A DNA stretch of 64,000 nt from Paracyclopina nana (lineage: Eukaryota; Arthropoda; Copepoda; Cyclopoida; Cyclopettidae), in NCBI GenBank assembly GCA_019096065.1, contig JAGUCH010000004.1, positions 6,448,001-6,512,000 of the forward strand, given 5' to 3'. Position numbers and translations under genes: made by a program. The notes under the pieces were generated by a model, which ran no database searches, was not told where the DNA came from, and worked only from the letters and a program-made list of their open reading frames with translations. This document shows, piece by piece, positions 7,882 through 60,126 of the stretch. Position 1 is the stretch's first letter. The number at the start of each line of letters is the position of its first letter.

Positions 7882-8531
7882 GTGACTCTCACATTATCCC
7901 CCACCAGAAAAATTTATCTATTATATGACACAGGTGCCACTATTAGCCTACTAGGAACAAGGGCTCTGAGACAACATTTACCCGAGGCCAGAATAACTCC
8001 ATGCACTCATCCAATGATTGCAAAATGTGCTTCTGGATCAAAACTCCACATCAAGGGTCTCCACAAACTGCAATTCAAACTTAAGGACAAGGACTTTGAA
8101 CATGAATTTTATGTGGCTGACAACCTCCAAGTGGATGGTATCATTGGAATGGACTTAATCAAAAAAGGCAAATTGGCTTATGATGCAGTGACTGATAAAG
8201 TGTTTATTTCTGAGCCTCAACAAGTGTGCCTCACCTCACGCATGATCTCTATGTACCTCAGAGGTCTGCGTCAATAACATCGATTAAGGCACCCCTTTAC
8301 TACTGTAAAAAGGACGTGGGAGTGGCCCTCCGAATACCAACAGAAACTATCTGTAATAATGACTTTGTAGTGACACCTGGTGAGGATGGAAAAGCTTGGA
8401 TCAATTTGGTAAACTACGGCCTGGAACCAGTACGATTGAAGAAAGGTACTATAATTGGCGAAGTGTTCCCCTGCGACAACCTTATGGAAGTTGACAATCT
8501 GCTAAGTGCCAGGGCCACAGCAAAACCCTAA
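7882..8531 (+). pseudogene. Gypsy-type aspartic protease and linker, frameshifted
   Basis: The frame covering 7882-8277 contains the retropepsin active-site motif LLYDTGATISLL and a downstream IIGMDLI, typical of Gypsy proteases. It is out of frame with gag and with the segment that follows (8226-8531), so at least one indel lies in the 8226-8277 overlap. The 8506-8531 overlap marks a further frame change into RT. Confidence 0.7.
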
Positions 8532-9957
8532 TGCAATTCCAGGCACCCAAGGGATAAGTCCTGGAGGAAGAAATGGGGATTCCAGCGTAAAGGTAAGACC
8601 ACAACAAAAAGTGGCACCGCTAGCCTATGAGGAAAAGGCACTTTTACAACTCATAGAAGACTCAAAATGTTTGAGAAATATTTGCGACGAGGACGTACGA
8701 AAAGCCTATGTTATGCTACTTTTGAAGAATGCTGATGTTATCTCTATGTCCGAATATGACTTGGGAAGAAGTACCTTTGGCAAGCACCATATCGAGCTGC
8801 TAAATGATTCACCAGTTTATCAAAAGCAATTTCCTATTCCCCAAGCTCATTTGGAAACTATTCAGGACAGTGTCAAACAGTGGTTAAAAGTCGGAGTAAT
8901 CGAGAAAAGCACCAGCGAATATTCATCGCCCATTTTTTGTGTCCCAAAGAAACTAGGAGACGGATCTACAGGTTATTGCCCAGTGGTGGACTATAGACAA
9001 ATTAACGCAATCACCAAACCTTCCAATTACCGTCTTCCCCTCATAAATGAATGCCTCGATGACATAGGCAGGTCAGGTACTAAGTTGTTTTCACAATTAG
9101 ACCTTAGGTGGGGATTTCACCAAATGGAAATGGCACCTGAGTCTAGACCAGTGACAGCTTTCAATGTGCCAGGCTTGGGGCACTATCAATTCAAAAGAGC
9201 ACCTTTTGGGCTTTCTGCAATGCCACTCAGCTTTCAAAAGATGATGAACAGAATTTTTGATGGACTCACACCAACTAGAGTGCTACTATACCTCGATGAT
9301 ATCCTGGTGAAAGCAACGGATCATAACGACATGCTACAAGGACTAAAGGAGTGTTTCAAAAGACTATGCCAAGCAAATCTCAAGCTCAACCTCTCAAAAT
9401 GTGAGTTTGGTACGCCAAAATGTACGTATCTAGGTTTTGAGCTTGGTCCTGATGGATATGGGCCCAACAAAAGAAAACTGGCGGCGATTAAGAACGCGAA
9501 ACCACCTCAAACTGTGAAGGACGTCAGGGCTTTTCTTGGTATGTGTCATTTCTTCCGCAGCTGTATTCCGCATTTCAACCAATTGGCGAAGCCATTGACT
9601 GCCTTAACCTGCAAAAATTCGGAATGGACAAGAGGAGCCTTACCTTCTGAGGCTCTAAAAGCTTTCAACTCATTAGTGAAAGCCTTGTGTGATCAACCAA
9701 TTCTAGGATATCCCAATCCAAAACTCCCTTACCATCTGTTTGTCGACGCAGCCCAAGGAAACATGGGGTTAAACAATGGAGGATTGGGAGCAGTTCTCAT
9801 GCAATACCAGAATGGAAAGCCTACAGCCATCAGCTATGCTTCAAGAAGCCTGCTAAAGCATGAAGCAAATTACACTCCTTACTTACTGGAATTACTGGCA
9901 GCCACTTAGGCCATCGATTATTACTCCACTTATCTAACTGGTAAGAAATTTATATTA
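8506..9957 (+). pseudogene. Gypsy-type reverse transcriptase and N-terminal RNase H
   Basis: The longest open block (8506-9909) has the RT palm motifs, including the catalytic YLDDILV and the fingers motif around VPKK, then the tether and start of RNase H (FVDAAQ at the first catalytic Asp). It ends at an in-frame TAG (9907-9909). RNase H similarity resumes for a few codons after the stop, until the nested insertion at about 9955 splits the domain. Confidence 0.8.
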
Positions 9958-10128
9958 CTATTAGCTGAGACGGCTGAGCAGTACATAAGTTCCGACCATA
10001 TAATTTCCATGATTTTTCACTGCTGTTTGATCTAGAGGAGGATAATGAACATTATGCATCTACAATTGGATAATGATCATTATACCTCACTTGATCCTTG
10101 CGCCATCTATTTTATTTGAATATCATAG

Positions 10129-10215
10129 AAAAAAAGGAAGGAGGCAGTAAGGATCGAACACCGGTCACCCGGGTAGCGAGCCAATGCTCTACCACTGAGC
10201 CACCAGTTTGATAAG
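10129..10215 (-). repeat. tRNA-derived SINE-like segment (Pol III promoter)
   Basis: On the minus strand an A-box-like TGGCTCAGTGG is followed about 35 bases on by a B-box-like GTGTTCGATCC, with D-arm-like sequence GCTCAGTGGTAGAGC. The T-stem and acceptor do not pair well, so this is a tRNA-derived repeat rather than a functional tRNA gene. Confidence 0.5.
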
Positions 10216-10252
10216 AAAATTTGTTCAGAAGCTGGCTTAAATACTTACAGCA

Positions 10253-10625
10253 CACAGTGGGACAAAAAGCGATTTTCACGCGCACGAGAAAATCCGCCAA
10301 ATCGCCCGAATTCTCATTTAACCACCAATTTACAACTTCTAATTGGGTTGACTTCTAGGCAATGAAATAAGCCAAAACTGGTTTGAATTGACAGATACAT
10401 TTTCAAATTTGACTTCGAAATCAAACTTTGCTTGAAAAAGTGTTCAGCAAGAAAAATGGTAGAAATCAATCAGACCCCATTTAATGATTATTCATCAAAA
10501 TTGGCTGCAGAAATTTGCGGACTTGGGAGCCCTGAATGTAAGCTTTCGGCCCTATGAAAATTGACTCCTACGATTTCGCGACTTTTTTTCCCGTGCGCGT
10601 CCAGAAGGCTTTTTGAGCCACTGTG
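10253..10625. mobile_element. Diverged copy of the CACGGTGGTTC MITE family
   Basis: Ends are CACAGTGG...AAAAAGC and GGCTTTTTGAGCCACTGTG, an imperfect terminal inverted repeat. Internal sequence matches, with many differences, the 456-bp elements at 50940-51395 and 55464-55918 (for example the shared stretch around the Asn-Asp-Tyr-Ser-like segment near 10480-10560). At about 373 bp it is an older, shortened copy. Confidence 0.6.
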
Positions 10626-10890
10626 CAGCAGTAAACTGGCGACTAGCGAGTGCTGAAGAAACATGGCCGAACAGGCTGGCGTGGCATGGTCGCAAGACGC
10701 AACAGCAACAAGTGCAAGCGCATGTTGAAGGCTAGCCCGCTGGGTCAGCTTTGATGAGCTCACGCTCGCTATCTGCAATAAAGCGAGCCGCAAAGTTTAA
10801 GGCATAACTTGAAAAAATCAAGCCAAAAATACTTTCATAAATTCAATTTTAGCCAATGCTTGAAATGTTGGGGGGCAGCTAATAGTAATA

Positions 10891-11007
10891 GGATTATACA
10901 CCTCTAGGCTGTCGGATAACACTCATTATTTTTTAGTGTCTCGTGCCAATCACTCTTGACACTAAAAAATAATTCGTGTTATCCTCCAGGCTAGAGGTGT
11001 ATAATCC
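10891..11007. mobile_element. Fold-back MITE (117 bp) inside the target duplication
   Basis: Two 50-nt arms beginning GGATTATACACCTCTAG and ending CTAGAGGTGTATAATCC pair almost completely (about five mismatches) around a 17-nt loop. TA flanks both sides (10889-10890 and 11008-11009), the duplication expected of Tc1/mariner-type MITEs. It landed within the TATA target duplication of the larger element, so it is the younger insertion. Confidence 0.75.
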
Positions 11008-11011
11008 TATA

Positions 11012-12464
11012 TTATACACGGATCACAAACCACTGGAAAATTTGGGGAAACAACACACCAGGACACTGAACAGGCTTCAATACCAAATGTGTCAATACGA
11101 CTTTGTAGTACGGCATTGGCCAGGTAAGGCTAACCCAGCAGATTACTTTTCCCGAAATGTACCAGAGCTCATGGAAAAGAGCAAAGCCCTCAGAAATGAA
11201 GAAGTTTACGCACATGAGGCAAAAGAAGACAATATGGATTTATTTGAACTGCAAAAAGATGATGGCTTATGCAATGCAATTATCAAATGGTTACGAAAAG
11301 AAGACATGGAGACAATGTCCAAGGAATTAAGGAAATTAGCTGAGAAAATTGGAGCACACTGCGAACTATTGGATGGAATATTATTTTACAAAGATGGACC
11401 CCTAGGAAAAAAGGTAATATTGGCTCCTGCTATCACACATGCCGATTTGGTAGCGTCTGCCCATGCTGCTGTGGGTCACAAGGCGATATACAAAACCCTG
11501 GAAAGACTAAAAGAAGAATTTTACTGGCCCAAAATGCTAAAGGATGTTGAGGATTACATAGCCCAATGTTGGAAATGCGACAAAAATAAACCCCGGCCAT
11601 ACAAAAACAATGCCAATTTGCGACCACACGAACAACCTCGAGGACCATTTGAGCGCGTTCATGCCGATTTGATGGGTCCATTACGTACAAGTGAGGAAAA
11701 CAAAAAGTTCATTTTAGTGATTACAGATGCATTCACCAAATTTGCTGAATTTGTGGCACTCCCGGACAAAACCCCAGAGACTGTAGCCCATGCATTGTTC
11801 AATCGGTGGATATGCAGATTTGGACCTCCTTTTGTATTTGTGACCGACCAAGGAAAAGAATTCACATCAAATTTAAGCAAGGCACTGTACGAATACCTGG
11901 AAATTGATAAGAGGCAAACATCGGCTTACCTCCCAGCATGTAATAGTGCAGCAGAAGTTATCAATAAGCTCATTGCCAATTATCTCAAGAAAATGGTTGA
12001 CTCTAATACACTGGAATGGGAAGCGATGTTACCAGCCATGCAATTAACTTACAATAGTGGTGTGTCTAAAGCCACTCGGTATTCACCCTACTATCTTATG
12101 TTTGGAGTACACCCCAGATCAAATTTGATGGACCCAAATTTGCCGGATCGAATCTATTATGGTGATGACTATGCATCAGAGATTAAACGACAGCTTATAT
12201 TGGCAAGAAAAGCAGCCAGGGAGTCTAATCTAAACTATAAAATTGACTACTCAGCACAATACAACAGAAATAGGTCTAACTTTTTTTACAGAAGGAATGC
12301 AAGTATGGCTACACCAACCAGAACTAAGAAAAATCAACCCAAAAATCTCAAGTGAATGGACCGGACCGCACCTAATTTTGGCCATGAGAGACGACACAAA
12401 TGCACTTATCCAAAATTATCTCACTAAGAAAACCCGAGGAGAGCAGCAGCAAAGGCCAACATAA
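11012..12464 (+). pseudogene. Gypsy-type RNase H end and integrase
   Basis: Begins with the tail of RNase H (YTDHKPL) after the nested insertion, then the integrase HHCC zinc domain (GHKAIYKTL...CWKCDK) and the D,D-35-E core (HADLMGP, VTDQGKEF, Glu in the SAAEV segment). The frame is open to 12355; the C-terminal region continues in another frame to about 12464, indicating an indel around 12243-12355. No chromodomain is visible. Confidence 0.8.
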
Positions 12465-19524: not shown

Positions 19525-21594
19525 TTATATTATTTTCTTTTTTGAATTTTTCAAATTTTTTCCTGGATGACTCTGAATTAATTCATCAAGCTCCTTTTTG
19601 GACAATTTCTTTTTGAAGCTCTTAAATTCGGTTTGCTTATGAATGTCGGTCACTCTTACTAAACCATCATTGAGTCTAGTTTCCTTGTATATGACTTTCA
19701 TAGCATTTCTTGCATCTTTTTCATTCAAGGTTTGAACAATCATAGCGTAGTTGCTCGCAATAATTGTGCTGAATTCTATCGAAGCATTTATCAGCATCTC
19801 CTCAATCAATTCAGGTTCTAGATTGGAAGTGCAGCTCAAAATGTGAAGACACCCAATTTCATATTTAAGTTTGGCTTGCTTCTTTATGCCTCTTACGTCC
19901 AATCCGTCAGTGTTCAAGCTAATTTGCATCAATTCACTGACACGATCTTGCACTATGGCCTTTTCTTGCGAGCTAAAGGTTTTTATCAAGAAGTGATATA
20001 GGAGAAAACACCCTTTATAATTACACGAGGTGCTGATGCCAAACTGGGAAAACATGTCTTTCAAGCTTACGCAGGGAGAACGCAAAATGCTTGTACCAAG
20101 GCGCGAGTAGTCCAGCACTTTGACTCCTTGGTTTAGATCAAATATGTTCTCAAATGAGTATCCTAAAGCTGCAATTCTTTTGAAGCCATCTTGGCAATTC
20201 TTCACATCCAATCGTGCAGCCATCTTGACCACATTAGGATTTGCCATAATTTTTCCTATTTCATGGCAAATTTGGTCATCTGTTAGATCCAACTTGGTGG
20301 AGGAATCAATTCCATCATGGACCTCAATCGATGGAATGGCTTGATCCGGTATTTCAGAAAAGTTGATCAGAATCACAGCTGATTCACGATCGAGGATTCT
20401 CTTGACTAATTCTCTGCAATGTTCCAGTTGCGTAGGTTTGCCACCTTCATTTTTTCCCGTATCTGTACAAAATATTTGACTTGATATGCTATCGAGAAGG
20501 TTGGCTTGAAATCCAGAATCAAGCACTTTGGCAGCTTGATCAGAATTGAGGAATGAGTAGACCTTAGAGGCAATTTGAGGCGAATCCATGATGAGATGAG
20601 CAGTGTTTTTTGAGCTGCACATGAGCACTTTTTTGTTGCCATCAAATGGGGAGAGTATGCTGTATAGTTGAGCTTTGGATACACTTGGACTTAAACCACT
20701 CAGAAAAATGTCACAGCTCATAGCTTGTGACCGCAGCTTTTGCCGTAGGTTCACCAATGCTTTGTCAAATGGACGTATCAATTGGCACTCATTCATATCT
20801 AGCAAAAATGGCCTGAAATCTGCCTCAATCATTGCATCTGTTTTTTCATACAACTCAAGTAAAGGATCGACATCATGAGCACAATAAACCAACACTTCTC
20901 CACTCAATTTTTTTTCCTCGAAAAACTGTCCTTCGTGCTTTGTCCATGCAAAACCACTAAATTTGCTTTTGTAAGGGTTAGTGGGAACTCCATAAAGCCC
21001 ACACAAGTTGTTGAAGCTTATATTATTTGAAAGCAGGGATTTGCCGTGATATTGGTATTCCAGTAACTTGTGAGCGACAGAAGTATCGTACAACGGATAC
21101 AGAGCAGTGTCAGCCTTGAATAAACTTATGCAGTCAATTGTGGCGTCATGCATAACCTTCAGCACTTTTGGGTGCTCTAGCAAGTCTCTAAGCCCACCAT
21201 CTTGAAACATGGACTTGAACAGTCCAGTTCGAAAAAGGAACACTTGACGCTCACTTGAACTAACTTGCACTAATCCTGGAGACTCGCTAGTTGCTTCAAG
21301 GTCCACGCCAATAGGTTTTCCCAAAGCGATAAGCTTTTTTGTAATGACTTCACATTCAGAGACACTATTCACTTGTGTGACTCGAGCTAATAGCTCTGCG
21401 GCAGTATTGCCATGAAGAAATTTTTTCCCGTCTTTTGGACAGCTACTGCTATGTGCAAAAGCTAATTTCCTAAAAAACATGTCAAAATTAGCACTGCCGC
21501 TAGATCGGTGAGCAACAATTTGACAATTAGCAATTTTTAGTTGTTTACGCTGTTTTGACTCGTGTGGGATGAAATCTGCGAGTTTTGTTTCCAA
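19525..21594 (-). CDS. DEDD 3'-5' exonuclease with RRM-like middle and degenerate second exonuclease lobe
   Basis: About 690 residues. The first exonuclease domain (about 90-265) shows Exo I GVDLEATSESPGLVQV (D and E), Exo II VMHDATIDCISL (D) and Exo III YCAHDVDPL (D), closest in style to EXD1/Egalitarian-type RNase D domains. Residues about 300-365 (CDIFLSGLSPSVSKAQLY) look like an RRM. Residues about 400-580 follow an exonuclease layout again but lack the acidic residues in the corresponding places. The tail is Lys-rich. Probable roles are RNA 3' trimming or RNA binding; no specific substrate can be inferred. There is no ATG in the open frame: the first usable codon is near 21594, and translation may start in an 8-nt exon at 21687-21694 spliced to 21616. 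It converges on VPS52 and diverges from the TyrRS gene. Confidence 0.7.
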   Translation of the reverse strand: METKLADFIPHESKQRKQLKIANCQIVAHRSSGSANFDMFFRKLAFAHSSSCPKDGKKFLHGNTAAELLARVTQVNSVSECEVITKKLIALGKPIGVDLEATSESPGLVQVSSSERQVFLFRTGLFKSMFQDGGLRDLLEHPKVLKVMHDATIDCISLFKADTALYPLYDTSVAHKLLEYQYHGKSLLSNNISFNNLCGLYGVPTNPYKSKFSGFAWTKHEGQFFEEKKLSGEVLVYCAHDVDPLLELYEKTDAMIEADFRPFLLDMNECQLIRPFDKALVNLRQKLRSQAMSCDIFLSGLSPSVSKAQLYSILSPFDGNKKVLMCSSKNTAHLIMDSPQIASKVYSFLNSDQAAKVLDSGFQANLLDSISSQIFCTDTGKNEGGKPTQLEHCRELVKRILDRESAVILINFSEIPDQAIPSIEVHDGIDSSTKLDLTDDQICHEIGKIMANPNVVKMAARLDVKNCQDGFKRIAALGYSFENIFDLNQGVKVLDYSRLGTSILRSPCVSLKDMFSQFGISTSCNYKGCFLLYHFLIKTFSSQEKAIVQDRVSELMQISLNTDGLDVRGIKKQAKLKYEIGCLHILSCTSNLEPELIEEMLINASIEFSTIIASNYAMIVQTLNEKDARNAMKVIYKETRLNDGLVRVTDIHKQTEFKSFKKKLSKKELDELIQSHPGKNLKNSKKKII

Positions 21595-21616
21595 CTCAAA
21601 ATAATTTTCAATACAC

Positions 21617-22044
21617 CTTTCACAATATTTTGTAAGTCAGATATTTCTGTCAATAGTCAAGCTTTTTAGTGATTTGAATGTAACACTCGGCCATTTCGCA
21701 GCTTTTTTAAAAATGAACTGCATCTTTTACTCTTTTGTTGGCAAATGATCCAGAAAAAATAGGTCAATATGGGAGCAATAGCAATTATCAAACTCAAACC
21801 CAAAAAGCGACAATCTCAGAAAAAGACCCTTCAAATTTCAGAAATAATATTTCTAAATGTAACGTATTCCTTAAATGGGTAACCATGAGGTTTTTTGACG
21901 ATTGCATAGTTTTGCGTTGAGAATCGAGCTTTTTCGATTTGTCGTTAAAGCAACTCACTGTACTCACATGTGCTTGTTTTCCAACCGCTCGCCTTGATCG
22001 GGCAGCATACTGAGAAGGTGAAGGCGAGCGAGTTGCCGCGTGGC
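21617..22044. promoter_or_regulatory. Divergent promoter region of exonuclease and TyrRS genes
   Basis: Head-to-head interval of about 430 bp. It may include a short intron and 8-nt first coding exon of the exonuclease gene on the minus strand. No core element was identified with confidence. Confidence 0.35.
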
Positions 22045-27003: not shown

Positions 27004-30000
27004 TCATTTTCCTGGTAAGTGACTGCGAAACATGTCCCTTGTGGCTGTGGACAATCGCTCTGGGAAGACGATGTCGAAACTAATGATGAGGTCGCCCTTG
27101 CGAGTGGGGTCCTTGGGGAGTGGCAGGCCCTTTCCGACGATCCGTTTGACTGTGGAGGGCTTGACGATCTCGTCCTGGAGATTGACGACCATTCGGTCCC
27201 CGCCTAGGAGTGGCACCTCCACCCGAGTCCCGCACAATGCCTGAAAGAATGAGCGTCAATCAAACCTTTGCTGCCACATTTCCGCAAGCTTGACATGATA
27301 GACATGCAAAGTTATGCCTCGCGCGTGACCAAAATTATGGACAGATTTCTCCTGCTGCGAACCTCTTACAGGCATAATGGCATAGTGCCTTCAAGGAAGA
27401 AGCCTTTTCCACAGTTTTTACAGGTGGCATTTCAATTTTTGAGGCCTGACTGCTGGCAAGCTGTCGCAGTTGCGGGCAAGAGAAATTATTATTATCATAG
27501 TCGCTTTTCAAGTGCCTCCTTGCTAGCTGCATCCAAGATTTTTTGCCTGTATAGCAGGAATAGGTCATTCCCACCCTGAGCATTTTTCGCGAGAGCGGAG
27601 CGAATCGTGGACTGAATTACAGATCTCCCCCAGGTCAACGGCGAGAGGGTCACCCAACATGCACAATTCGTATTCAATTCTTATTCCACTTTCTACGCTC
27701 CGCGCATGGTGGACAAAAAGCTTTGAAAAATGCACTTGCTGCTGCTGCTGCTGGAGGATTAAGTTTCCACATAGAACATAATATGCGCTACTTTTACGCT
27801 TGCAGCAGCAAGGAGCCTTCATTCAAAATTTCGTCATTTCTCTAAATGTCGCTCTATAAACTATACGAGTGTGAGACCACCATAATGCTTTGGGAGAAAA
27901 AGGCACTGCATTCTTGCCATGGTCATCGACTGCAGCAGAGCTCGCGATGAAATCTCTTTGACTAATGACCCAGTCGCGAGCCAATCGCTAACGATGATCA
28001 TGGCTCAGATTTCTCGTGCAACAAGCGCACGTGATCATTGTAAGCTCAGGTGGGATATCTGCAAATCTACCCGTTTTCACCTACGATACGGCATAATATG
28101 TTGTTCCAAGCAGTTTCCACGATAGGATGGCCTAGTTTTGCGCGCTCAACGTCACTCATGAACCACAATGTCACCTTGGCTGCTGCTGCTATTATATTCC
28201 AACTTTTCCCAGCAAGCACTCAAGCCTGAATTGAGCAACCCCCTGTATGAAGAATCGCCTCTCACTAATCTGATCACGATGTAAACGAGTAAATAAACGT
28301 CACACATAAAAAGTACTGCTGAGGACTTTTGGTCCAAGTCGTTTATTTACGACCGAACGGTATAAAATCCAAGTAAGTACTAAGTAATCATAATAAAACA
28401 GATCGAAAAGTAGGACCAGCCAGATGCGCAACGCCGAGACATCAAAACAAGGGCGCACCCCCAAACAGTCCCCCTCGAGGCTTGTCACTGGTGGTCCTGA
28501 TCACTGGAATCTTGAATCCCGTCTCTTCTTAATCTTGCATGCAGACAACAGGCTTGATGTTACAATAAAAGTACGCTGCCATCAATGATCGCTCTCTCAG
28601 CAATGACCTCGCGGCGACCCTCTGGAAATATCGGTTGACTCTGTCCGCGGCAAGCAATTGCGGCAGAGATCTGCTAGCGTGATACGTAGCATCATGGCCG
28701 CGTAAGCCACAATCTTGACAGATCCACAACGCCTTGGCGCAGCACTCGGCTGCATGGCCAGCCTGGTCACAAATCGGGAGGCGGCACGACTTTTTCTCTC
28801 GACACAACGCTGGGTGGTGGTCAAATGATCCACAAATAGTGCACATGTGTGGCCATCGAGGAATATTTCTGCCCTGCTTAGCCACTGTGGTCAGCTCGCC
28901 CCACCGTGCAGTCAGAACCTCCGGCTCGTGCCACTCCTCTACGGGCCTGCCCACAACGAATTCCAGATTGTTCAACTTGGCGTCAGCAACCCATGACAAC
29001 ATTGGTCTCGCCAGAGGTATGATCGCGTCCAGAGATTTCAATGTGACAATGATCGCCGTGAATGAGTTGTAGAACTTCGACTCCCGCCTCAACAAGTCTG
29101 ACAATTGCCCCCGACAACCGCGATCGGGGAGCAAGCCAGCATACTCGTTGCGAAATGCATCCTTGTCATTCATTGGCACTCCTCGTAGCAAGGCCAGCAC
29201 AAAGATGGCCAGATGAAACACGTCATCTTTGTCTTCATAGCCCTCGCCCTGGCCCAGGAGCAATGCAATTTTGAAAAGTGCTGCTAGGGGAGCGAACTGG
29301 TCCACCCTGTCGTAGTACATCGTGTCCTCGGTGTATTCATCAGCAAATCCTCCGTATGGGTTGGACGACGCAAAGTTGGGTTTGACGACTGAGTGCTGGA
29401 CCTCCAACAGATCAAGGGTTGCAAATTTTCCAACCTTGGCCGTTCTTTTCAACAGCACATTGAGGTGACCAGCATCTACCCAGTTTTTAACTTTAATGCC
29501 CATTAGTTCAAACTTACGCACGTCCTCGCTGATGGCATAGCCCACTTTGAAGATGGCCTCAGACTCCAGGAGCTTCTTGATTTCCTCGGGGATGGCTTGC
29601 CCGGTGAACACTGGTCCAACCCAGCCAGTCCTGATGCCGCATGCGAGGCCCGTCACTGTGCCCATGTGCACATATGACACCATGCTATTGAGCTCTTCTT
29701 TGTTGGGGCCGTATTTTCGCGCGAAGGAGTCCCTGAACCTTGTTTGGTAGCCCTCAGTGTCTAGCGTCATAACCTTGAATCGTTTCACTGCTTCGAAGAA
29801 GCCTCCAGCCTGCAGCGCGTTTTTTGCTTCGGGCCAATGAGTAAAGGTGCGCTCGTTGTCGTTCTTGGTCAATCCATGAATGATGTACGATTTGACTTTT
29901 TTCGAGGACAGATCGAACGCCGTGTTTTTTGCCATCGACGCTTTTTCCCTCGCTTCTCGCAGTGACACTGTTGGCATCACATCCATCTCCGTCCCCAGTG

Positions 30001-33000
30001 ACTCCGCCCACGCAAATTCGGGCCGAGCAACACACGAAACCTCACCGCACTTTACTTTGCGCACGACCTCCGGAATGGTCAACATCAGCCCCGGCTTATA
30101 ATCAGCGCAGAGCGAGTCTCTCTTCCCATATCTCTTCAGATACTCCTCGTCCGTCTCTGGAAGCTCGACTGGTCTCGATTTGAGCTTGCTCAGATCAGCC
30201 GGGACATTACTTCTTGCTCCTCCGGTCCTTGGCTTGACCTCGACCATTTCGTCGTCCGAGTCCAGCAGCCCAAAATCTGCCTCCGCTCCTGCAGGGATGA
30301 CTATCCTGCTTGGCACCGCGCTTGATGTGGACGGCTGCGGCTCTCTTTCCATAAAAATGTCAGTTTGGCAGCTCGCATTGCTTGACTCCCTTGATTCTCC
30401 AGCCGTGGCCTGACACGCGGTGGTAACCTGCTCAATGCTCACCGTCTGGCTGGCCGTGTTGACTCGCTCATCTCTTCTGGCTGTTGCCACCGGAGGCCGA
30501 CAACCGCGATCGGCCCCCTCTTCAGTCTGCCCTGCTTTGTCATGCATGATCCGCAGGAATGGTTGTGAGTCAGCTTGCGCTGCTGCTTCCAATGCCTTTT
30601 GAATTGCCAGCAGCATGTCCTCGTTGTGTTTGGCCGTCAGCATCGGAAATTTTTTATAGCGTGCCGCGAACTCCTTCAGCTCGTCCTTTACCAGTGCTTG
30701 GCCCAGCTTGTCATAGATGACCACGTTAGTGATTTTGCCATCCTTGTAGGCCTTGACGACATCCGGAACTCTGGCCAAGCTTTGCGACGACTCCAGTGAC
30801 TGCAATAGTCCTCGCTCCCAGTTAATGTCGTCCTGGCTGCCGATGATGTAATCTCCTAAGTTCTTTGCGATCAGCCAGCACTTCGTCCTGTCAACCATGT
30901 CCATTGGCCTTTCCATTGCCGGGTCTCGTTCCTGTTGGTACATGTCAAATACTTCATGGAAATGATTACCGAATGCGAACATGATGACTTCGATGAGCGT
31001 GAGCCCTCTGGCTCGCAACACGTATGATCGATAGCATCGATGGATGTCCGCTCGCCTAGCTCGTCTCCGTTTGTCGCCATCTCGATCATCGCTTGGGAAT
31101 CTATCGCCCCAGTTATATTGGTCGCCCACGATGATGATCCCTGGGTTTTTTATCGTTTCCAGGAAAGTGAGCTTGAGCGAGTCCTTTGCTCTCACATACC
31201 AGTGGAGCTCTCTGCTGCCCGTGATCCTCATGATCTCCCTCGACTCGTCTTCTTGTCTCGCCGATACCGTGCTGGCGGGGCCCGTCGTCGCCGGCTGCCC
31301 CATCGAGTTTGCTATTTGCAATGGCCTTTCTTCCTGGTCAGAACGACGACCGCGGTCGTCCCTCCCAGGGGTGGCTCTTCTTGGCGACCTTGATCGCCCC
31401 GATCCTGACCGGCGCGAGCTTGATCCCCCGCTTTCGCGATGTCTTCTTCGATCGGCCATTTTCACCTTACGATTTGGCGGACTTTTCTTCGCTTTTTTAT
31501 TGTTTTGGCGCGTTGCTGAGATTTGCTGCTCGGCCAAACTAGTTGCAGCGTTATTGGGTATTTTCGGTGGGTGAAAGAGGTACCAGATGAAATTCTGGAT
31601 TTTGACTAGATTTGTGGTGGTTTTTGGAAATGTGGTTGGGAAAGTTGCTTTTCGCGTCATAAATTCAGTTAAGTTTGATGTAGGGCAAGTTGTGAGCGGG
31701 GATTAACTGTCTTACCCCTCTTTCAATGACTCCATGACGGTGCTTCACTACAACTTTCCTGACAAGGCCATCCGCACTTTTGATTGCCTTGACAACTTTA
31801 CCCACAGTCCAGTTTTTTCTCTTGATTTTGAGGTCCTCCTCGGCCACCACAACCAGGTCTCCCTCCTTGATGTTTTCTGTCACTACTTGAAATTTTGATC
31901 TCTGATGCATTTCTGCCAGATATTGGTCTCGCCATGTCCTCTCGAAGTCCGCTACAGCTTCCGCTGTCAGTTGAATTTGCGCGTCTAGGCTATCGTCTTC
32001 TGCAAACAGACCCGTGTCACCCACTCTGCCCACCAACAAATGATTTGGTGTGAGTACTAGAGTTTGGTCTCCTCTATTGACCGTGGCTATTGGTCTGGAA
32101 TTCACTATATTCTCTGCCATCGCCACCCAAGTCCTAAACACGTCAAAGTCCACTTTTCCTCCATCAATGTGGTCGCCGATCGCCCTCTTTGCCAGCTTGA
32201 CGAACGCTTCCACCTGTCCTGAGGCCTCATGATCCCTCGGTGCATTCATGACCCATTTCGTCACGAACTTCGCCGTTCTTATTCTCACGAGTTCCCAATC
32301 GACATGCTCGTCTTCATAGTCCAGTCTTTGATGCTGCTGCCTCTGCTCCGCAGACCACACTCTGCACGCCTTTTTGTATGCACCTTCATTGTCCGAGTAA
32401 ATGACCTCGATCGGTCCCCGCCTGGACTTCAGTCTCGACATCGCCAGCACCAGTGCCTCAGTGTTGCGACCCATTGTCACCTCTAGAGTGACTGCTTTCG
32501 TCTGCAGGCAGACTGCCACCAACACGTACACTGGAATGTTCTTTCTGAACATCGTTGTCCACTTGACACCCGTGAAGTCAATGGCTATTCTGGAGAATGG
32601 CTTTATGTTCGTTAGGTTCAAGTCCTTCTTTGATCCCATTAGCTGCGTTGGCAACGGCATGTGCAGCCTCCTACATTGGCTGCAGTCTCTTGAGATCAGC
32701 TTCGCTAGCTTTTTCATCTCCGGTCCTGCCATCGCCGCTGCCGCTTTGAACCAGAGGCTATCATTTCGTATGTGTCTTTCACTTGTGTGGAGGGTCCTGA
32801 AGTAAAGTCTGAAAGGCCACGTGTCGATCATTAAAATTGGGTACACCTGTGAATCAGGTAGTCCTTCTTGAGCGTAAAGTCTTGTCCTCACTCTGACGAG
32901 GCCGTCTGTTGCTAAGAATGGAGTCAACTTCGCCAAACCTTGCTTCCATTTTCCAGTCTTTTCGTAATGCAGGATGTCTTCTTCGAGTTTCAGCCACTGA

Positions 33001-36000
33001 GCATATATCAGAACTTTTTGGGTCATCTCGGCGATCAGTTCCAATGGAAGCTCCTCTCCCAGCTTCTCCTTTTTTCCGAACTGGGCTGCTCTCACTAGTC
33101 CTCTGATCATGATTGACCACCTGATCGCCACGCTCTTGTCTATGACTCTTTTCATTCGTTCGTATATTTCGTGGCTGGCTTTCACCTGTTCTTGTCCTCC
33201 TGCTTTCACCCTTTGCGGCTGCAACAGCCCCAGTTGATTTGTTCTCAATTGATCAAGACAACCGCGATCTTGACCAAGTAGAACCACCTCGCCTTTGCTT
33301 GCGAGATCCTCAAGGGTTACTTTCAAGTCAGTTAGAGTCCACTCCACTGATGGCTTTTGGAAATACTCTGGTCCTGTCCAATAGGTTTCGTGATTCATAA
33401 GTTGCGTGCCTGTGCACCCTCGCGTGGGCAAATCGGCTGGGTTAATGCCTGTGGGTATGTGGTTCCATCTGGTGACGTCAGTCGTGTCGGATATCTCGAT
33501 GGCTCTGTTTCGCACATACACAGTTCTATCCACACCCGCTTTTCTAATCCAGCATATCACAGGCTTGTTATCAACCCAATACCACACTGCGGCTCTCTTG
33601 ATTCCGAATAACTGCATGAGCCTTCCTGACAGCCTTGCACTCAATAATGCTCCTGCCAACTCAACTTCTGGAATTCTTCTCTGCTTCACACTCTGCAGCC
33701 TTCCTTTCGTGGTGAGCCATGCTGGCTTAATTTTGTTGTCTTCCGATGCCAAATATGCCACTGTCGCAAAGGCCAGATCCGAGCCGTCGCTGCACATGTG
33801 TAGCACTGTTTTTTCATTGATTTCTGGGGCTGCCATCCTCGGGTACGAGACTGCACTCATCTCATCGAATTCTTTGCGCCACTGCTTCCATAGCTTGACC
33901 GCTTCTCTTACTCGGTCATCGTCAACCTTCTCCAGGTTCTCGTCCCAGCTAATCTTCTTAGTCTTGTCTGCGCTGTGTGCTAACTGCAAAGCCTTTCTTG
34001 CTTTGAGTAGGCATGGTGCTAGTGCTCCTAGTGGATCGAAGATTGACGGTATTTGGCTTGCCATTATCCTCTTCGTGATGAGTTTTTGTTCCACTTTGTT
34101 AAGCTGATATCCAATCCTGTCCGTTGTTGGATCCCATTTCAGCCCCAGTGTGGAATGTATTGCCAATTCCCCTTTTTCTTCCATTGTCATGACCTTTCCC
34201 AGTCTTTCCTTGGGCAGGTTCTTGAGTGCGCCAGGCTTATTTGACACGAATTTCCTGAGCTCCATTCCACAGCTACTCATCAGTGGTACTAGCTCGTCGA
34301 TGATTTCTCTGGCTTCCTCTTCGGTCTTAAAGGCCATAATCGCGTCGTCCATGTAGATCTTGACCTTGCTCTGCAGCCTTTTTGATCCATGTTCTTTGAT
34401 GTGGTGCTTGACGACGAAGTTGGCCACGCTGGGAGCTGCTCTCAATCCAAACGGCCACCTGCAAAACTGCATTTGTCTACCATTCACTATTATCCGCACA
34501 TATTTCCTGTCAGCCTTTGGCAGTTCCACCATGAGGTACATCTTTTCTATGTCCCCCACTACTGCCACCTCGCCAACTCTGAACCTCAACATTGTGTCAT
34601 AAATATCTTCCAGGAAATTTGGTCCAGTGTGCATGGTTTCGTTGATTGCAATGCCGTTGAACTTTTGCTTGGCATTGTAGACAAATCTAAATTTGGTGGT
34701 CTCACTGCTTTCTCTGGCCACACAGAAGTAGAGCAGGAAATTCCCGTTGCCGGCATCCGCGGCCGGCACCGGTTCAATTATCCCCAGCCTCTCATACTCT
34801 GCCATCGTCTCCTCCACGGCCTTTTGCACTCTTGGGTCTCGTGCATGTTTTTTGTCTATGGTTTTCTGAATTGCCAGACATTGCACGTAATTGTTCGGCA
34901 CTCCCGGAATGTCGTCGAAGAATGGTATCGCAACCTCGTATCTTCCGGATTCTGTTCTTCTTATGGTTGATTTCATTTTGGCTAGCGCGATCTCTTCTGA
35001 CACATTCAATCGACTTATTGGTGTCTCGGCTCTGTCTATCCCAATGGATTCCAGTCCGTATTGCCTGTTCAACAGGTATTCCAATTGGTCATCCGTCATT
35101 GCTGATCTGTTGATCTCTTTCCACTCATTGACGAGGCCAGCGAAGTCCAGTCCCCCGGCTGCCGGGTGATTGAACATTGCCCACCCCAATGGTGTCTTCC
35201 TAGCAAGTGGGCCGTCCAGGATTGATATGTCTTCCTCGCTGCTCATCAAATGGGTATTGTTGAAGCCTACCAGCAAGCTCACCCCGCCTTCCGCCGGCCT
35301 TGGAAACTCTACGTCTTTCAACTGCTCATAGTCTCCTTTCATCTCGTTAGCATCAACTGGCGTTATGGTTACTGGCAGATTAAAGGTGTTGAAGTTGATC
35401 TCAAACACTCGTTCCTTTTCGTCTCTGGGTCTGATGTACAATTTCCCTCCAACTGATGGCTGTCGGACTAACTTGCCACCGACGACATGAACTGCCAGTT
35501 CCTGCCTTTTTCCCTTGACACCAATTTTCTTTGCTATTTCTGGCAGCAGCAGCGTGGTGCTGGAGCCTCCATCAATAAGTGCATTAATGACCTCGCACTT
35601 CTCGAATGATTTGCTCACTGAAATTTCAACCGGGACTGTCAGCCACGATCGAGCTGCCTGTTGGGCTAGCGCACATATTTCCACGTTCTCCATGTCATAA
35701 ATGTCTTCCTCACCAAGACAACCGCGGTCTTGGCTCAGAAGAGTTGTCTCCGTGAGCTTTTTAGCAATTTCCATTAGCATCGCTGCCACATCTTGGTTGC
35801 TCGTTTTCACTGCCTGCCCTTCTTTTTCTTTCCTTGGGTGTAGCTTCGTGTGGTGAGTCTTTGAATTGCAGAGGTTGCACTGATCTTTCCCTCGACAATC
35901 CTGGGCCTTATGCTTCCCTCTTAGGCACCTCTCGCAAAGACCTTCCTGCTTAATTTTCTCCCTGAGGTCTTTGATATCCAATTTGTCCCAGCTTGGGCAC

Positions 36001-39000
36001 TCGAAGCCTCTATGCCCGCTTTTTGTACACACAAAGCACTCTCTTGGACCTGCCAACGCGCAGGCTTCCTCTTCTTGATCGTAGTATGTTTCATCCATGC
36101 TGTACTCCTGGGCATCGTAGTCTTCTTCCTCCTCAGAAAAGTACCAGTTCTCATTCCCTTCATCTCGGGCATGAAAAGTTGCTTCTCTTTGGCGAAAGTT
36201 GCCCCCTTGCCTTTGGCCTCCTCTGTAGTATTGGCCTCCTCGAGGCCTGTTGAATCTCTGGGGTCGATCCTGATCTCTCCTCTGATTGCTGACAACATTG
36301 GACGGTGCTTGTCTCAAGTCTGTGCGATCATACATTCTGTTGATGTCTTCGCACATGTTATCCACTTTCCTGATCCTTTGATATTCTCTAATCCGAGCTC
36401 TGGCCCAGGTGATGAGCAGTCTTATGGAGTCGTCAGTCTGGTTCTTCTGCTCCTTGAAAGTTCTGTAGTCTCTTTTTGTCCTGGCCTCGTATCTCACGCT
36501 GGCTAGAACTAGCTGCTCGCCATCAAGAGGATCCAGCCCTGCTCGTCCATTGCAGTCGATTATTTCCTCGATAAGTGCCAGCACCGTCTCCACCGTTCTC
36601 ATTTGTCTCAAATCAATGGGGTCGTACTTCTGCAGTCTGATCGTGAGATCATGTACCATTTCTTTGGCCTCTCCAGGGTGCGACCCAAATCTGGCGTCCA
36701 GGTTTTCAAGGGCCTCCACAAAGCCCTCATAGTTGAGTGGGCATTTTCTGATCAAGGGGCCCAACTTGCAGTAGGATTTTAGCTTGGAGCACTTCTCGAA
36801 CCAGCTCATGTTTTGTTTCATCACTAGAGCTGAGTGTATGAACTCCTTGAAGTCTCTATAAGCTCCCACATTCGTGCCATCGAACACCATTGGCTTGACG
36901 TCGTCTCTGACCAAGTCCCTTGGCTTGGAAGGATCATAGAATTTGTGAAGATTCCTTCTCTGGAACAGTTCTCCCCAAGAGATGGTCTGGTTCTTTCGTC
37001 GTCTGACTTGGTCGATTATGGTGTTTTGATCCAGGAATTCCATTTCTCTTTTTATTTTCAGCTTCACTTGTTCATTTGTCAGGTTGACTGAGGGGACTCC
37101 CAGCTGCAGCGATCTGTCCATTTGACTCATGAGGTCATACATCTCGTCCATCCTCTCCGCCTCCCTCGCTTGCTGAGGTGGTGGTGGCTGCTCTTCCGCT
37201 CTGTCCTGAGCTGCCTGACTTTGTGCGCTGCGCTGAGTTTGAGGTTGCTTTTCTTTAATGCACTTGATGAGGTGCCCTATTTCCCTGTTGCACGTGACAA
37301 TTCTCTGCTTGTCAGCTGGACCTATTTCGTTTTCTGGCATTTTGCTCATGGTTGCCTCCAGCTCCAGTCTCCTTTCATTCATCTCTTCCATGCTTCTCTG
37401 CTGCTGCTCAAAGTCCAGCGTGCCTTGCTTCAGTCCTCTGAGGACTTTGTCGGCTTGCTTGATTTGTGTCACAATCGACAAGTAGTCCCCCAATAACTCA
37501 GTTCCAGACTGATCTTCCTCTTCGTCGTCCCCCAGTTGCGACGAGTCAGCCTCCTGATTTTGATCTGCTTTGTCAGCAGAGGCACCTGCAGCCTCCGCTG
37601 ACCATTCTGTGAAGGCTTCCAATTGCTGGACTGCTAACCTCCTGGCTTTGGCGCTCGCTCCTATGGTCTGCTTGACTATTTGAGCGTTCATAGCTGTGAC
37701 AATTGCCTTGAACTCTGCTTTGTCTTCTTGAGGAACTATCGGATCCAAGATCAACGCCTCATCCCTTAGCAGTCCCACCAGCTGGCCGCACTTGTCCCTG
37801 ATCGCACAAGCTTCTGCTGGTGAACTCGCCTTCTCTAGCATTTTTTCAATCTTTGCTAGATCGGCCGCAAAGGTGTCCCTTGAGGCTTGCCAACTCTCCT
37901 TCCAGGTTGCCATCGCCTCGTGTGCAGTGGCCATCAGTTGATCATTCATGGTTTCCTCCGCTGCTATTCTAGTCGTGTCATCGATCTCCAGGTGCAGTGA
38001 GTCAATATAATGCACATCTGGATGTCCTGATTGTACAATAGACTGATCTGTAGACAGACTTTGCTTGAATGCTTCAATGGCTCTTTTCGCCAGCTTGTCT
38101 TCTTCTCCTTCCCTGGCCTTCTCCAGCTGATTGGCGAGAACTTTCGTGCCTCTCGCCTGCTTGATTTGTAGATCGTACTCAGCTGAGTTGAACCTGGTGG
38201 ATTTTTTGATGCACTGCCTGAGGGTATAGTTGGTTCTTCCTCGCTTCGTTTTCCCTTCGAAGACTCGATCGTCTGATTCGGTTTCGCTACTTGACATCTG
38301 TCTAGGCCTGGTCCCCCGTTCGTCCCTGACGATGAGGTGGGCCCTCCAGCAGCCCTTTAGGCCTAGCCGGAGTTTTGGCGGTTTTCTGCCTCTGTCTCAG
38401 CTTTTCCACTCACAATCAATCCTATCCCGGTAACTGGTAGGTGAAACTCTGAATCTCGGTAGTGATGTTCTCACGCGTTGGTCGCCATGTATGAAAAATC
38501 GCCTCTCACTAATCTGATCACGATGTAAACGAGTAAATAAACGTCACACATAAAAAGTACTGCTGAGGACTTTTGGTCCAAGTCGTTTATTTACGACCGA
38601 ACGGTATAAAATCCAAGTAAGTACTAAGTAATCATAATAAAACAGATCGAAAAGTAGGACCAGCCAGATGCGCAACGCCGAGACATCAAAACAAGGGCGC
38701 ACCCCCAAACACCCCCTACATGTATAAAGGTACTTTCTGCTGGTCCAATTAGGCGCACCTTGCGCTTGAAGATGAGTTTGGCCACGGGGCAGACATAATA
38801 TTTGTGTCTGGCTTGTCCGAAGCTTAATTGCGCGATCCGAGTGGAAAAGAACAGGAAAACGACGACCACCCCAATACATGGCTGGTTTCTCTCGCATGCA
38901 AAGAAGGAATCATCATTTTAGCCTCCTCGTCATTTCATCCAGGAAGCGAACAGCCCACCTACGTAAAGTCTTGGCGAAGCAAAAAAGCATGGAGGCAATA

Positions 39001-56021: not shown

Positions 56022-56451
56022 GTTTTCAATGTTTCTAAGCTTTTTCTGCCTTACTCCCCGCAAGTGAATTTTACCGGAAAATATGACGTCAGGTTTTGCA
56101 TCTCTACTGAGCACAATTTCGTTTTGTGACGTCATCAATACTTTTTCTGCCAATCTAGGGGTGTGAACTAAGTGCAACTGAGTAAGCAAAAGTAAGGCAC
56201 GAAAGAATCTTTTGAACGGGCTCCAGCTTCTTTGCTCCTTTTCTCGTCAAGCAATTTCGCTGGCTCAATGATGGAAAAAGAAGCTGTATCTCAATGTTTG
56301 AATAAGGAATGCTCCCGATCAATGAGAAAGCTGCTTGCCGTTGCATCAGCAAAGTATTGAGGACTCAAAAACCGATCAATTTGTAAATATACAGGTTTTA
56401 AAGAGCTCCATATTTATTCTGGTTAGATCGTGCTTCACCCAGAAATGGAAA
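56022..56451. other. 5' flank of CIAO2B-PIGO
   Basis: Unique DNA of about 430 bp after the right repeat arm. It presumably holds the promoter of the CIAO2B-PIGO unit. The frame is open from 56335 but without family similarity before 56452. Confidence 0.4.
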
Positions 56452-57016
56452 ATGATGCGAATGCCTGATGCCAGCAGTGAGTCTGCTCAAGAGCGCCTAG
56501 AGAACGTCAACCCCAAATTGCACGAGGTCGCTGGGGAGCGTGAAATCAAGGATTCTGATTGGGAGGACGCCATTCCCGATCCGGTCGACGATCGCGAAAT
56601 TTTCGACCTTGTTCGTAACATCAACGACCCAGAGCACCCGCTAACACTTGAACAACTGGATGTGGTGAAGCTTGATGACATCAACGTTGACGATGCGGGC
56701 AACCATGTCAAAGTTGCGTTCACCCCAACCATCCCCCATTGCAGCATGGCGACGATCATAGGGTTGTCGATCAGGGTGAAGCTTCTGCGGTCTTTGCCTC
56801 CTAGGTTTAAGGTGGACGTCATCATTGCTCCCGGGACTCACGCGAGCGAGGCGGCTGTTAATAAACAGTTGGCTGATAAGGTAAAAAAGGAAGGATACCA
56901 AAGGTCATGCCAAAGTCACATTCACTTAATTTTTTTTGTAGGAACGTGTTGCTGCTGCCTTGGAGAATTCTCACCTATTGGATGTAGTGAATCAGTGTTT
57001 GACCGAAGAAGCCTAG
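56452..57016 (+). CDS. CIAO2B: CIAO2B (MIP18/FAM96B), cytosolic Fe-S targeting factor
   Basis: Exon 1 is 56452-56880 and exon 2 is 56942-57016 (61-bp intron, phase 0); 167 residues (human 163). DREIFDLVRNINDPEHPLTLEQL, AFTPTIPHCSMATIIGLSIRVKLL and INKQLADKERVAAALEN-type sequence across the junction are diagnostic of the MIP18 family (DUF59). The reactive Cys in the PHCSMAT loop is present. The protein works with MMS19 and CIAO1 to insert Fe-S clusters into nuclear and cytosolic enzymes. Upstream ATGs at 56452, 56455 and 56461 are alternatives. The stop TAG (57014-57016) is two bases before the PIGO ATG. Without splicing, exon 1 would read through in the PIGO frame. Confidence 0.93.
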
Positions 57017-57018
57017 AA

Positions 57019-60000: not shown

Positions 60001-60126
60001 ATTTTCGAGGCTGTGGGCTTTGGTGTGAGCCTTTTGGCTATGTGCCTCAGCTATCTGACCTTCATTCGTGTGCAGAATTCGTTGTCGCTCTACCTGAGTG
60101 AGCTGTCATCGAAGAAAGACAAATAA
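57019..60126 (+). CDS. PIGO: PIGO, GPI ethanolamine-phosphate transferase 3
   Basis: Intronless, 1035 residues (human 1089). It begins MDRYFAFLFWSNVIFC, a signal anchor. The lumenal alkaline-phosphatase-like domain shows VVVIIDALKYDF (metal-binding Asp), DPPTTTMQRLKGM (Thr nucleophile), FLGVDHAGHKYGP and MGDHGMTMTGDHGGDS (metal ligands). About a dozen membrane helices follow from about residue 420. The enzyme adds ethanolamine phosphate to the third mannose of the GPI precursor in the ER, the bridge to the anchored protein. It starts two bases after the CIAO2B stop. AATAAA overlaps the stop codon (60122-60127). Confidence 0.93.
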   Translation: MDRYFAFLFWSNVIFCITVFLFQKGFLLNRESLPDKTECFSKMNNNDSCNRLPKQYSKAVVVIIDALKYDFTLYDKDLQNARPYQNAMPIISELVRSGHGKLFESYADPPTTTMQRLKGMVTGSIPTFIDMSANFASYEIDEDNIIDQLVDNGQRVVFAGDNTWLSLFPNRFTRTFAFPSFNVWDLDTVDRGVEKHLFEELSRPQSWDVLIAHFLGVDHAGHKYGPDHPEMRRKLTEMNTVVARLVKEIPRDCVLFVMGDHGMTMTGDHGGDSEDELKAALFIYSNSSKASVNAQQAHESHRISQIDFVPTFSLLMGLPIPFSNIGKVINEVFIPNGMRQLQFLKINVEQVFTYLSKYRHLHSDALSKSVMDSIEVQKSSFMNKTAINPNEVTEMLEMGTKLLSSAKKICEATFVEFDLLHIWMGLTFSSLHISLMVVLSLDKIFLKSVVSPKLIVALLISFAVGTGLNCAMTNSSLMTKLPYLAAMFVGVTLPVCGLTVLWRIRYSVGQALTNVVAQGQMFSLYFFGAMLFMCACLFSNSYVVEEAHVTQYVVMSVFLAHMLKGNFMFKSTRNLILSVTVLTALAGVKVYFRCREEQQEHCSPSDFHKSIGTLNAAESKSYAQWRFFSTMLSLLVLVMLPNYWLSRCGNLNGMSLPVIITSYLPSMVGVTLVVHWALQALPQEMASKLLLWQHNFLALFVYAICLICIIALMAKPHLIYCEKESRRFGKEMPKLYDGVSSYYRMMKSNWKEHFSVSNTQGKTPTVYGIGTAISAAFVAMGIFMSLLSILILGDGLSPSIVLAFLAIVMYLYLTSTQRLTEAANITELMHVPWSSVIGYDLLCSLFFYATSHQPTFPTIQWGAAFVGFSGANYGGTEGLGLNYWLPALLIGWNTYAARIVFGFFMPLLMVAPFTFFMTQDDMKKLCAKMPSPVTELLSQGETVLLEQRDEAKSHMFRLCVKYSVILGLRMLSSMLAAALHRRHLMVWKIFAPRFIFEAVGFGVSLLAMCLSYLTFIRVQNSLSLYLSELSSKKDK

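Follow-up and report, generated by a model that had tools for sequence, protein, structure and literature searches.

The BEL/Pao element and its hairpins

The stretch of DNA analysed here, referred to below as the window, comprises 64,000 nucleotides of the genome of the copepod Paracyclopina nana (C4:6448001-6512000). It carries a BEL/Pao retrotransposon, whose sense strand is the minus strand and which consists of long terminal repeats (LTRs) and two open reading frames (ORF1 and ORF2). A series of RNA hairpins with a shared loop motif runs through both frames, and these hairpins are the subject of this report. The main parts of the element are as follows (aa, amino acids):

28244..28467, minus strand: 3' LTR, flanked by GGGGG; the LTR pair is 98% alike
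28529..31702, minus strand: ORF2, 1057 aa from stop to stop
28679..28843, minus strand: two ORF2 zinc knuckles
31665..38396, minus strand: ORF1, 2243 aa from stop to stop, encoding Gag and BEL/Pao Pol
35838..36038, minus strand: three Gag zinc knuckles (CFVC..., CERC..., CNLC...)
38488..38711, minus strand: 5' LTR (TG...CA), followed by the primer-binding-site-like TGGCGACCAACGCG, with GGGGG outside

A profile search of ORF1 in pieces gave matches above the cut-off for RVT_1, Peptidase_A17 and DUF5641, while the Asp_protease_2 and rve matches stayed below it (integrase 26.5 bits, Pfam cut-off 32.6). Peptidase_A17, reverse transcriptase (RT) and the sub-threshold integrase in a single ORF, together with the LTRs, place the element in BEL/Pao, and DUF5641 and the GGGGG flanking the LTRs are further points of likeness to this group. 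As points of difference from known BEL/Pao elements we note the hairpin system and the second ORF, which combines an exonuclease-like part with zinc knuckles. The C-terminal half of ORF2 (28532-30022, minus strand) showed weak similarity to 3'-5' exonucleases (PF01612, E 0.0047, below the cut-off); PF01612 was matched by two of eight aligned ORF2 members at E<=0.1, the best at 8.7e-4, and weak matches in PDB included WRN and EXD2 chains (E 0.014 and 0.13). This exonuclease-like signature and the two zinc knuckles in ORF2 also occur in related elements, and most related RT loci have the Gag zinc knuckles. An NCBIfam search of ORF2 gave no match, and there is no strong hydrophobic span in it (highest 19-residue mean 1.57); its product is not an obvious envelope protein.

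A preliminary description of the window had reported four 21-nucleotide (nt) hairpins, at 29109, 30495, 33253 and 35713. All four were found exactly as claimed, in a single codon frame that encodes D-R-G-C with the codons CGC GGT TGT. The proposed architecture, a stem of 6 base pairs (bp) around a 9-nt loop, was exact as to the pairing; however, in the sense RNA the hairpins are better read with the 7-nt loop CGCGGUU, because the base that precedes CGCGGUU pairs (C-G) or wobbles (U.G) with the G that follows it. The sense-strand stems, closed by C-G or U.G, are then 7-11 bp long with G.U allowed. The set of four also proved to have more members, namely 34747-34769, a weaker one at 31340-31362 and a probable one at 37572-37602 (bits are covariance-model scores):

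35712..35734, minus strand: hairpin 1, CCAAGAC-[CGCGGUU]-GUCUUGG, 27.7 bits; in ORF1, flanked by the Gag zinc knuckles and the weak protease match, at site S1, which is shared with other families
34747..34769, minus strand: hairpin 2, newly added, UGCCGGC-[CGCGGAU]-GCCGGCA, 25.4 bits; at the start of the RT region, in codon phase 2
33252..33274, minus strand: hairpin 3, UUGGUCAAGAU-[CGCGGUU]-GUCUUGAUCAA, 11 bp including two G.U, 23.2 bits; between the A17 and integrase matches, at site S2
31340..31362, minus strand: hairpin 4, newly added and weaker, GGACGAC-[CGCGGUC]-GUCGUUC, 15.6 bits, E 0.15; in the 5' part of ORF2
30494..30516, minus strand: hairpin 5, GGCCGAU-[CGCGGUU]-GUCGGCC, 10 bp with G.U, 24.6 bits; in ORF2
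29108..29130, minus strand: hairpin 6, CCCCGAU-[CGCGGUU]-GUCGGGG, 23.9 bits; in ORF2
37572..37602, minus strand: probable hairpin 7, 12-bp stem with the loop UGCAGGU, in the Gag region

The two ORF1 hairpins of the original set had been placed at domain borders, and both do sit between domain matches; hairpin 2, however, is found where the RT piece begins, and a position at domain borders is thus not general.

In the covariance-model scan, the four reported hairpins and hairpin 2 scored 23-28 bits (E 9e-5 to 1.4e-3), as they should by construction, since the model was built from hairpins including these five. The best match outside the element in the window reached 13.1 bits (E 0.71), and there was no match at the probable hairpin 7. 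With up to two mismatches, the 13-mer core was listed six times in the window (four exact occurrences and one near-palindromic place on both strands), against a mean of 1.54 in the shuffled window, where six was reached in 1 of 100 shuffles. The rest of the window, including a Gypsy-type element, contained no CNYGG hairpin with a 7-nt loop (stem of at least 7, at most one G.U), and Rfam 15 had no match in the window at the gathering threshold.

At the DNA level only two copies of the window family were found, 99% alike over ORF2. In the second copy (C8:4762000-4769500; L012 and L014), the ORF2 frames are broken and the RT piece contains one stop, and all four reported hairpins are retained; its loop at hairpin 2 is UGCGGAU. 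Because there were only two such copies, the pairing test had to use related families.

Hairpins and loop types in related elements

With a 600-aa RT piece as query, we obtained at least 73 matches in the genome (73 scored of 269 candidates), and we compared the RT region +-1.5 kb of 30 elements (L013-L042, the window's own included) as well as the ORF2 stretches of 14. A BEL/Pao clade among them bears several dispersed ORF1 and ORF2 hairpins, with stems of 6-11 bp that vary yet remain paired, and with a 7-nt C-N-Y-G-G-N-N loop closed by C-G (or U.G). Such a loop on a stem of at least 6 bp was present in the covered part of 22 of the 30 elements. Relative to the RT start, the recurring places are -930, +35, about 950, 1530 and 2585 in ORF1 (codon phases 0, 2, 1, 0 and 2, respectively) and about 3400, 4300, 4820 and 5600 in ORF2; the full set occurs in no single element.

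The variable loop bases are common within an element and different between lineages. The types CGCGGUU, CUCGGUU, CUCGGGU, CUUGGUU/CCUGGUU and C-N-Y-GGAA group into clades of the RT tree, from which C9_502 was omitted. In a permutation test with 49 loops from 15 of the 22 elements (near-identical copies, C4_652 and C9_502 dropped), the mean loop difference was 0.60 within and 2.32 between elements, and none of 10,000 permutations was as extreme. The difference was likewise larger between than within elements for the UU-type lineages alone (0.49 within, 1.56 between; 0 of 10,000) and for the AA-type lineages alone (0.79 within, 1.28 between; 64 of 10,000 permutations as extreme). A sister clade (55-57% identity) has the loop UGCAGYU, which the loop of hairpin 7 resembles, and in places an internal loop separates a 4-bp upper stem from a lower one; a further clade (48-49% identity) has CUCAGUU or CCUAGUU in a similar architecture.

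As a separate observation, the primer-binding-site-like TGGCGACCAA (38440-38487, minus strand, and also in L069 and L070) is followed by CGCG in the CGCGGUU family or by CTCGG in the CUCGGUU family, which echoes the loops. A link between primer-binding site and loop was considered on the basis of TGGCGACCAACGCG in the window, TGGCGACCAACTCGG in the CUCGGUU family and TGGCGATCAACGTT in a CUUGGUU family, and it was set aside, being suggestive in two families and absent in the third.

Genome-wide, GAYCGCGGTTGTC was found at 14 places and its reversed control at 2. Of the 14, eight are the four reported hairpins and their equivalents in the C8 copy, and five of the remaining six are located within or next to elements of the 55-57% clade, on the sense strand of these elements, with interrupted stems. 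The 13-mer pattern GACCTYGGTTGTC was found at 43 places (4 for the reversed control), 36 of them within 6 kb of a BEL match and all of these in sense orientation. The seven places elsewhere bear on the idea that a host RNA-binding protein or host small RNA reads the loop, for decay, translation or silencing, since outside BEL elements the 13-mer is near its control level. A loop-plus-stem motif of this size is indeed typical of cellular hairpin-binding proteins; however, the families differ in their loops within the same host, and the loop consensus sequences of Smaug and IRE1 do not fit. The Smaug/Vts1 element has a loop that begins with CNGG, whereas the loop here is C-N-Y-G-G with a pyrimidine as the third base, and the IRE1 splice hairpin agrees in its 7-nt loop but not in its consensus, CNGCNGN. 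We therefore regard a host reader as improbable. Mimicry of an anticodon arm of transfer RNA (tRNA) does not fit either, in that loop position 2 is G, U, C or A and not regularly the U33 of tRNA; YGG, as at loop positions 3-5, corresponds to proline anticodons.

Outside this genome, an IMG/VR scan yielded no relative and nine distant proteins were found, so that the covariation tests used sequences of this genome. A TyrRS search for the host listed at least 120 hits; the seven among them with a species name are all crustaceans (52-62% identity over 54-70% of the query), which points to a probably crustacean-like host.

Selection on the paired structure

It is near certain that the hairpin structure is real. 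The formation of stems depends on the motif: sense-strand sites of [CT]CNYGGNWG had a stem of at least 6 bp in 53 of 196 unique cases, whereas five altered motifs on the same strand had stems in 0 of 41, 0 of 96, 2 of 348, 3 of 210 and 0 of 160, and any C-N7-G in 110 of 9104. In a set of 45 hairpins (one of 46, a weak one from C9_502, had been dropped beforehand), 91.4% of the cells were paired, compared with 56.4% after shuffling, and the covariation score was 0.903, compared with 0.223 for shuffled and 0.099-0.182 for slid rows; changes on both sides were seen in seven of the eight pairs. This result is biased upward because the rows had been selected for pairing. Less biased are the altered-motif controls and two tests on the sites S1 and S2, whose rows were picked for the peptide D-x-[GS]-[CSY], irrespective of pairing. 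In these 30 unique rows, pairs 1 to 8 were formed in 30, 30, 29, 28, 27, 24, 18 and 24 cases, respectively. Of the pairs at these sites that depend on a synonymous third base, 102 of 122 were formed, whereas codon usage predicts 39.4 +- 4.8 (C8a was excluded, as were peptides in which D is followed by G, N or S, and the S1 row of C2_592 was missed owing to a frame offset).

An origin by chance or base composition was ruled out by the altered-motif controls and by the slid and shuffled pairing; the effect size and the many different stems make chance untenable. The stems change yet stay mostly paired across related families of the same genome. The central proposal of the preliminary description, selection on the paired structure beyond the peptide, is borne out by the motif dependence of the stems, by the pairing kept across families and by the bias of third codon positions towards pairing.

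A selected peptide motif D-x-G-C/S, for instance a protease site, with accidental pairing, would account for the fact that, in many families, the phase-0 unit at S1 and S2 specifies D-x-G-C or D-x-G-S. However, the same hairpin also occurs in codon phases 1 and 2, so that it is found in all three ORF1 phases and a peptide motif does not explain it; the third-base pairing contradicts it as well. We consider this explanation vanishingly improbable.

Paired stems could also originate from short mobile palindromes inserted into the ORFs, or from mutation that tends to perfect inverted repeats. The ORF2 sites do lie in poorly aligned segments, and one lineage has both orientations of the hairpin (see below). 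On the other hand, the D-x-G-C segment at S1 and S2 aligns across families with 64-67% RT identity despite their different stems, the S2 alignment is ungapped except for one broken copy, and a mutational process alone should not maintain CNYGG. Inserted palindromes would be present or absent at unrelated places, whereas S1 and S2 are shared across families, and an origin of this kind appears very improbable.

For 66 hairpins, chosen by loop and at least six of eight Watson-Crick pairs, we also predicted folding in a 167-nt context with ViennaRNA; the mean pair probability was at least 0.8 in 50 of them.

A putative recognition role and its alternatives

Covariance-model matches at E<=0.05 were in sense orientation in 47 of 51 cases at 18 RT loci and in 36 of 36 at 14 ORF2 loci (the latter overlapping, with some sites counted twice, and judged by eye against the ORF strands). 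Given this sense bias, the freedom of the stems, the conservation of the loop, the multiple copies and the lineage-specific loops within one host, an element-encoded RNA-binding protein is the simplest reading. The interpretation that we favour, tentatively and at a little below an even chance, is that these are dispersed recognition hairpins in the genomic RNA, putatively bound by a zinc-knuckle protein of the element for self-selection. Retroviral nucleocapsid zinc knuckles are known to bind exposed G residues in hairpin loops. By analogy, the hairpins would be exposed in the genomic RNA and the loop, especially its GG, would be contacted by a zinc-knuckle protein, for which the nucleocapsid part of Gag (three knuckles) and ORF2 (two knuckles) are the candidates. 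Several sites per RNA may provide avidity, with which a family could single out its own RNA, for packaging and assembly, from that of the many other BEL families in the same host, and the lineage-specific loops may reflect co-evolution with the binding protein.

Several observations weigh against this interpretation. All comparisons were made within one genome (92 Mb, 10 contigs), and the rows compared share ancestry; the counts overstate their independence and are not strict probabilities. In the covered part, 8 of the 30 elements lack the CNYGG form; seven of these eight have a related 7-nt loop (UGCAGYU, CUCAGUU or CCUAGUU), often with a short upper stem and an internal loop, and C4_843, from the 48-49% clade, shows no such hairpin. 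The motif is also absent from two elements, covered over 4.5 kb each, that belong to a distant BEL clade (31-35% identity), though their Gag has knuckles. The GGAA-type pattern GACCMYGGAAGTC was not enriched genome-wide (13 places, 10 for the control), and 6 of the 66 hairpins folded in the 167-nt context were predicted to be mostly unpaired (below 0.2, one at 0.04). Wobble pairs were counted in 53 rows that had the loop and six or more of eight Watson-Crick pairs, with the closing pair left free, and the ratio of G.U to A.C was 21:13 over eight pairs, 10:6 over the inner six and 7:6 over pairs 2-6; such near-even wobbles do not mark the sense strand. An asymmetry of wobbles had been considered as proof of that strand and was rejected, since the search pattern had forced C-G or U.G as the first pair and the symmetric count was near even. 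Finally, of 75 antisense motif sites 6 have stems, and the CUUGGUU lineage shows hairpins in reverse orientation at four places in ORF1 (about -2490, -1330, 708 and 1072), each of which occurs in one or more elements of this lineage.

The reversed hairpins at -2490 covary (CCCCCGUC/GGCGGGGG, CCGCAGCC/GGCUGUGG and UCGCGGCC/GGCCGUGG). The predicted pairing of reversed hairpins on the sense strand was 0.66-1.00 in 11 of 12 rows and 0.06 in the other, and on the antisense strand 0.44-1.00; their wobble bias is only suggestive, because the detection model rewards G.U on the motif strand. Outside the CUUGGUU lineage, weak antisense-motif hairpins of 6 bp with two G.U were seen in C9_566 and its copy C9_567 (relative position 2342), and we take these as chance occurrences. 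The reversed hairpins and the neutral wobbles leave room for roles at the DNA level or in loop-loop contacts.

In the latter case, the genomic RNA would be dimerised or compacted through kissing loops, whose bases would change together since the partners must match. With its closing C, CGCGGUU includes the palindrome CCGCGG, and UGCAGUU includes CUGCAG; moreover, the reversed hairpins of the CUUGGUU lineage show sense loops of the AACCAAG type, complementary to CUUGGUU, and both strands are predicted to fold. However, none of the loops CUCGGUU, CUCGGGU and CNYGGAA is self-complementary, the examined parts contained no partner hairpin for them, the window element has no AACCGCG loop, and most wobbles of the reversed hairpins are on the antisense side, which is also the side favoured by the detection. 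We think that loop-loop pairing is unlikely to be the main role.

At the DNA level, a hairpin or cruciform in complementary DNA (cDNA) or integrated DNA, on either strand, might be recognised by integrase, by the exonuclease-like ORF2 product or by a host recombination factor. This would agree with the hairpins that are reversed at four ORF1 sites of the CUUGGUU lineage, with wobble counts that favour neither strand and with the weak exonuclease signature in ORF2. The sense bias elsewhere speaks against it (36 of 36 places of GACCTYGGTTGTC near BEL matches, together with the counts for the RT and ORF2 loci given above), and a double-stranded DNA site does not need a covarying stem. A role of this kind appears unlikely as well.

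A variant of the favoured recognition model might accommodate both orientations, namely a strand-flexible hairpin identity code, in which a lineage-specific loop badge is read by the lineage's own zinc-knuckle protein and the RNA or cDNA of relatives is avoided. Such a code would mark the genomic RNA and, in one lineage, also the opposite strand. Judged from the sequences, we consider this variant possible but doubtful.

Other features of the window

About 7 kb from the BEL/Pao element lies a 703-aa open frame (19525-21636, minus strand) with a clear DNA_pol_A_exo1 domain (E 2.5e-16). The Gypsy-type element mentioned above (8506-12355, plus strand) has RVT_1, RNase H, Integrase_H2C2 and rve matches. 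A single open frame at 56326-60126 (plus strand) combines FeS_assembly_P with phosphodiesterase and weak PIGO_PIGG matches, and it represents perhaps two genes or a read-through intron.

Relation to known systems

Psi elements of LTR retrotransposons and retroviruses are compact regions near the 5' end, whereas the BEL/Pao hairpins run through ORF1 and ORF2. In Ty1, Gag interacts preferentially with packaging-signal RNA (PMC8396678). The alphavirus packaging signal lies in nsP1 (or nsP2; PMC8233893); here, the hairpins span both retrotransposon ORFs, the loop has 7 nt, and its variable bases change together between families. Closer in arrangement are MS2 and other single-stranded RNA viruses, for which PMC6281560 describes multiple stem-loops that lie dispersed, have a recognition motif in common and otherwise vary in sequence. 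The element likewise has several stem-loops that share a loop motif; however, the viral signals are bound by coat protein with varying affinity, whereas the BEL/Pao loop hardly varies within a given element and its binder is a candidate protein. Our searches of the literature on BEL-Pao and LTR-element hairpins, apart from preprints and most subscription papers, brought up no account of such a system.

To our knowledge, it is largely open by what means LTR retrotransposons distinguish their own RNA from the RNA of related elements. With about 30 related elements in one genome, lineage-specific loops, varying but paired stems and two candidate proteins per lineage, the question of self-recognition becomes directly testable. 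If the proposed recognition role is true, the idea of dispersed packaging signals would extend from RNA viruses to retrotransposons, and if the reverse-oriented copies are functional, they would represent a new kind of hairpin signal.

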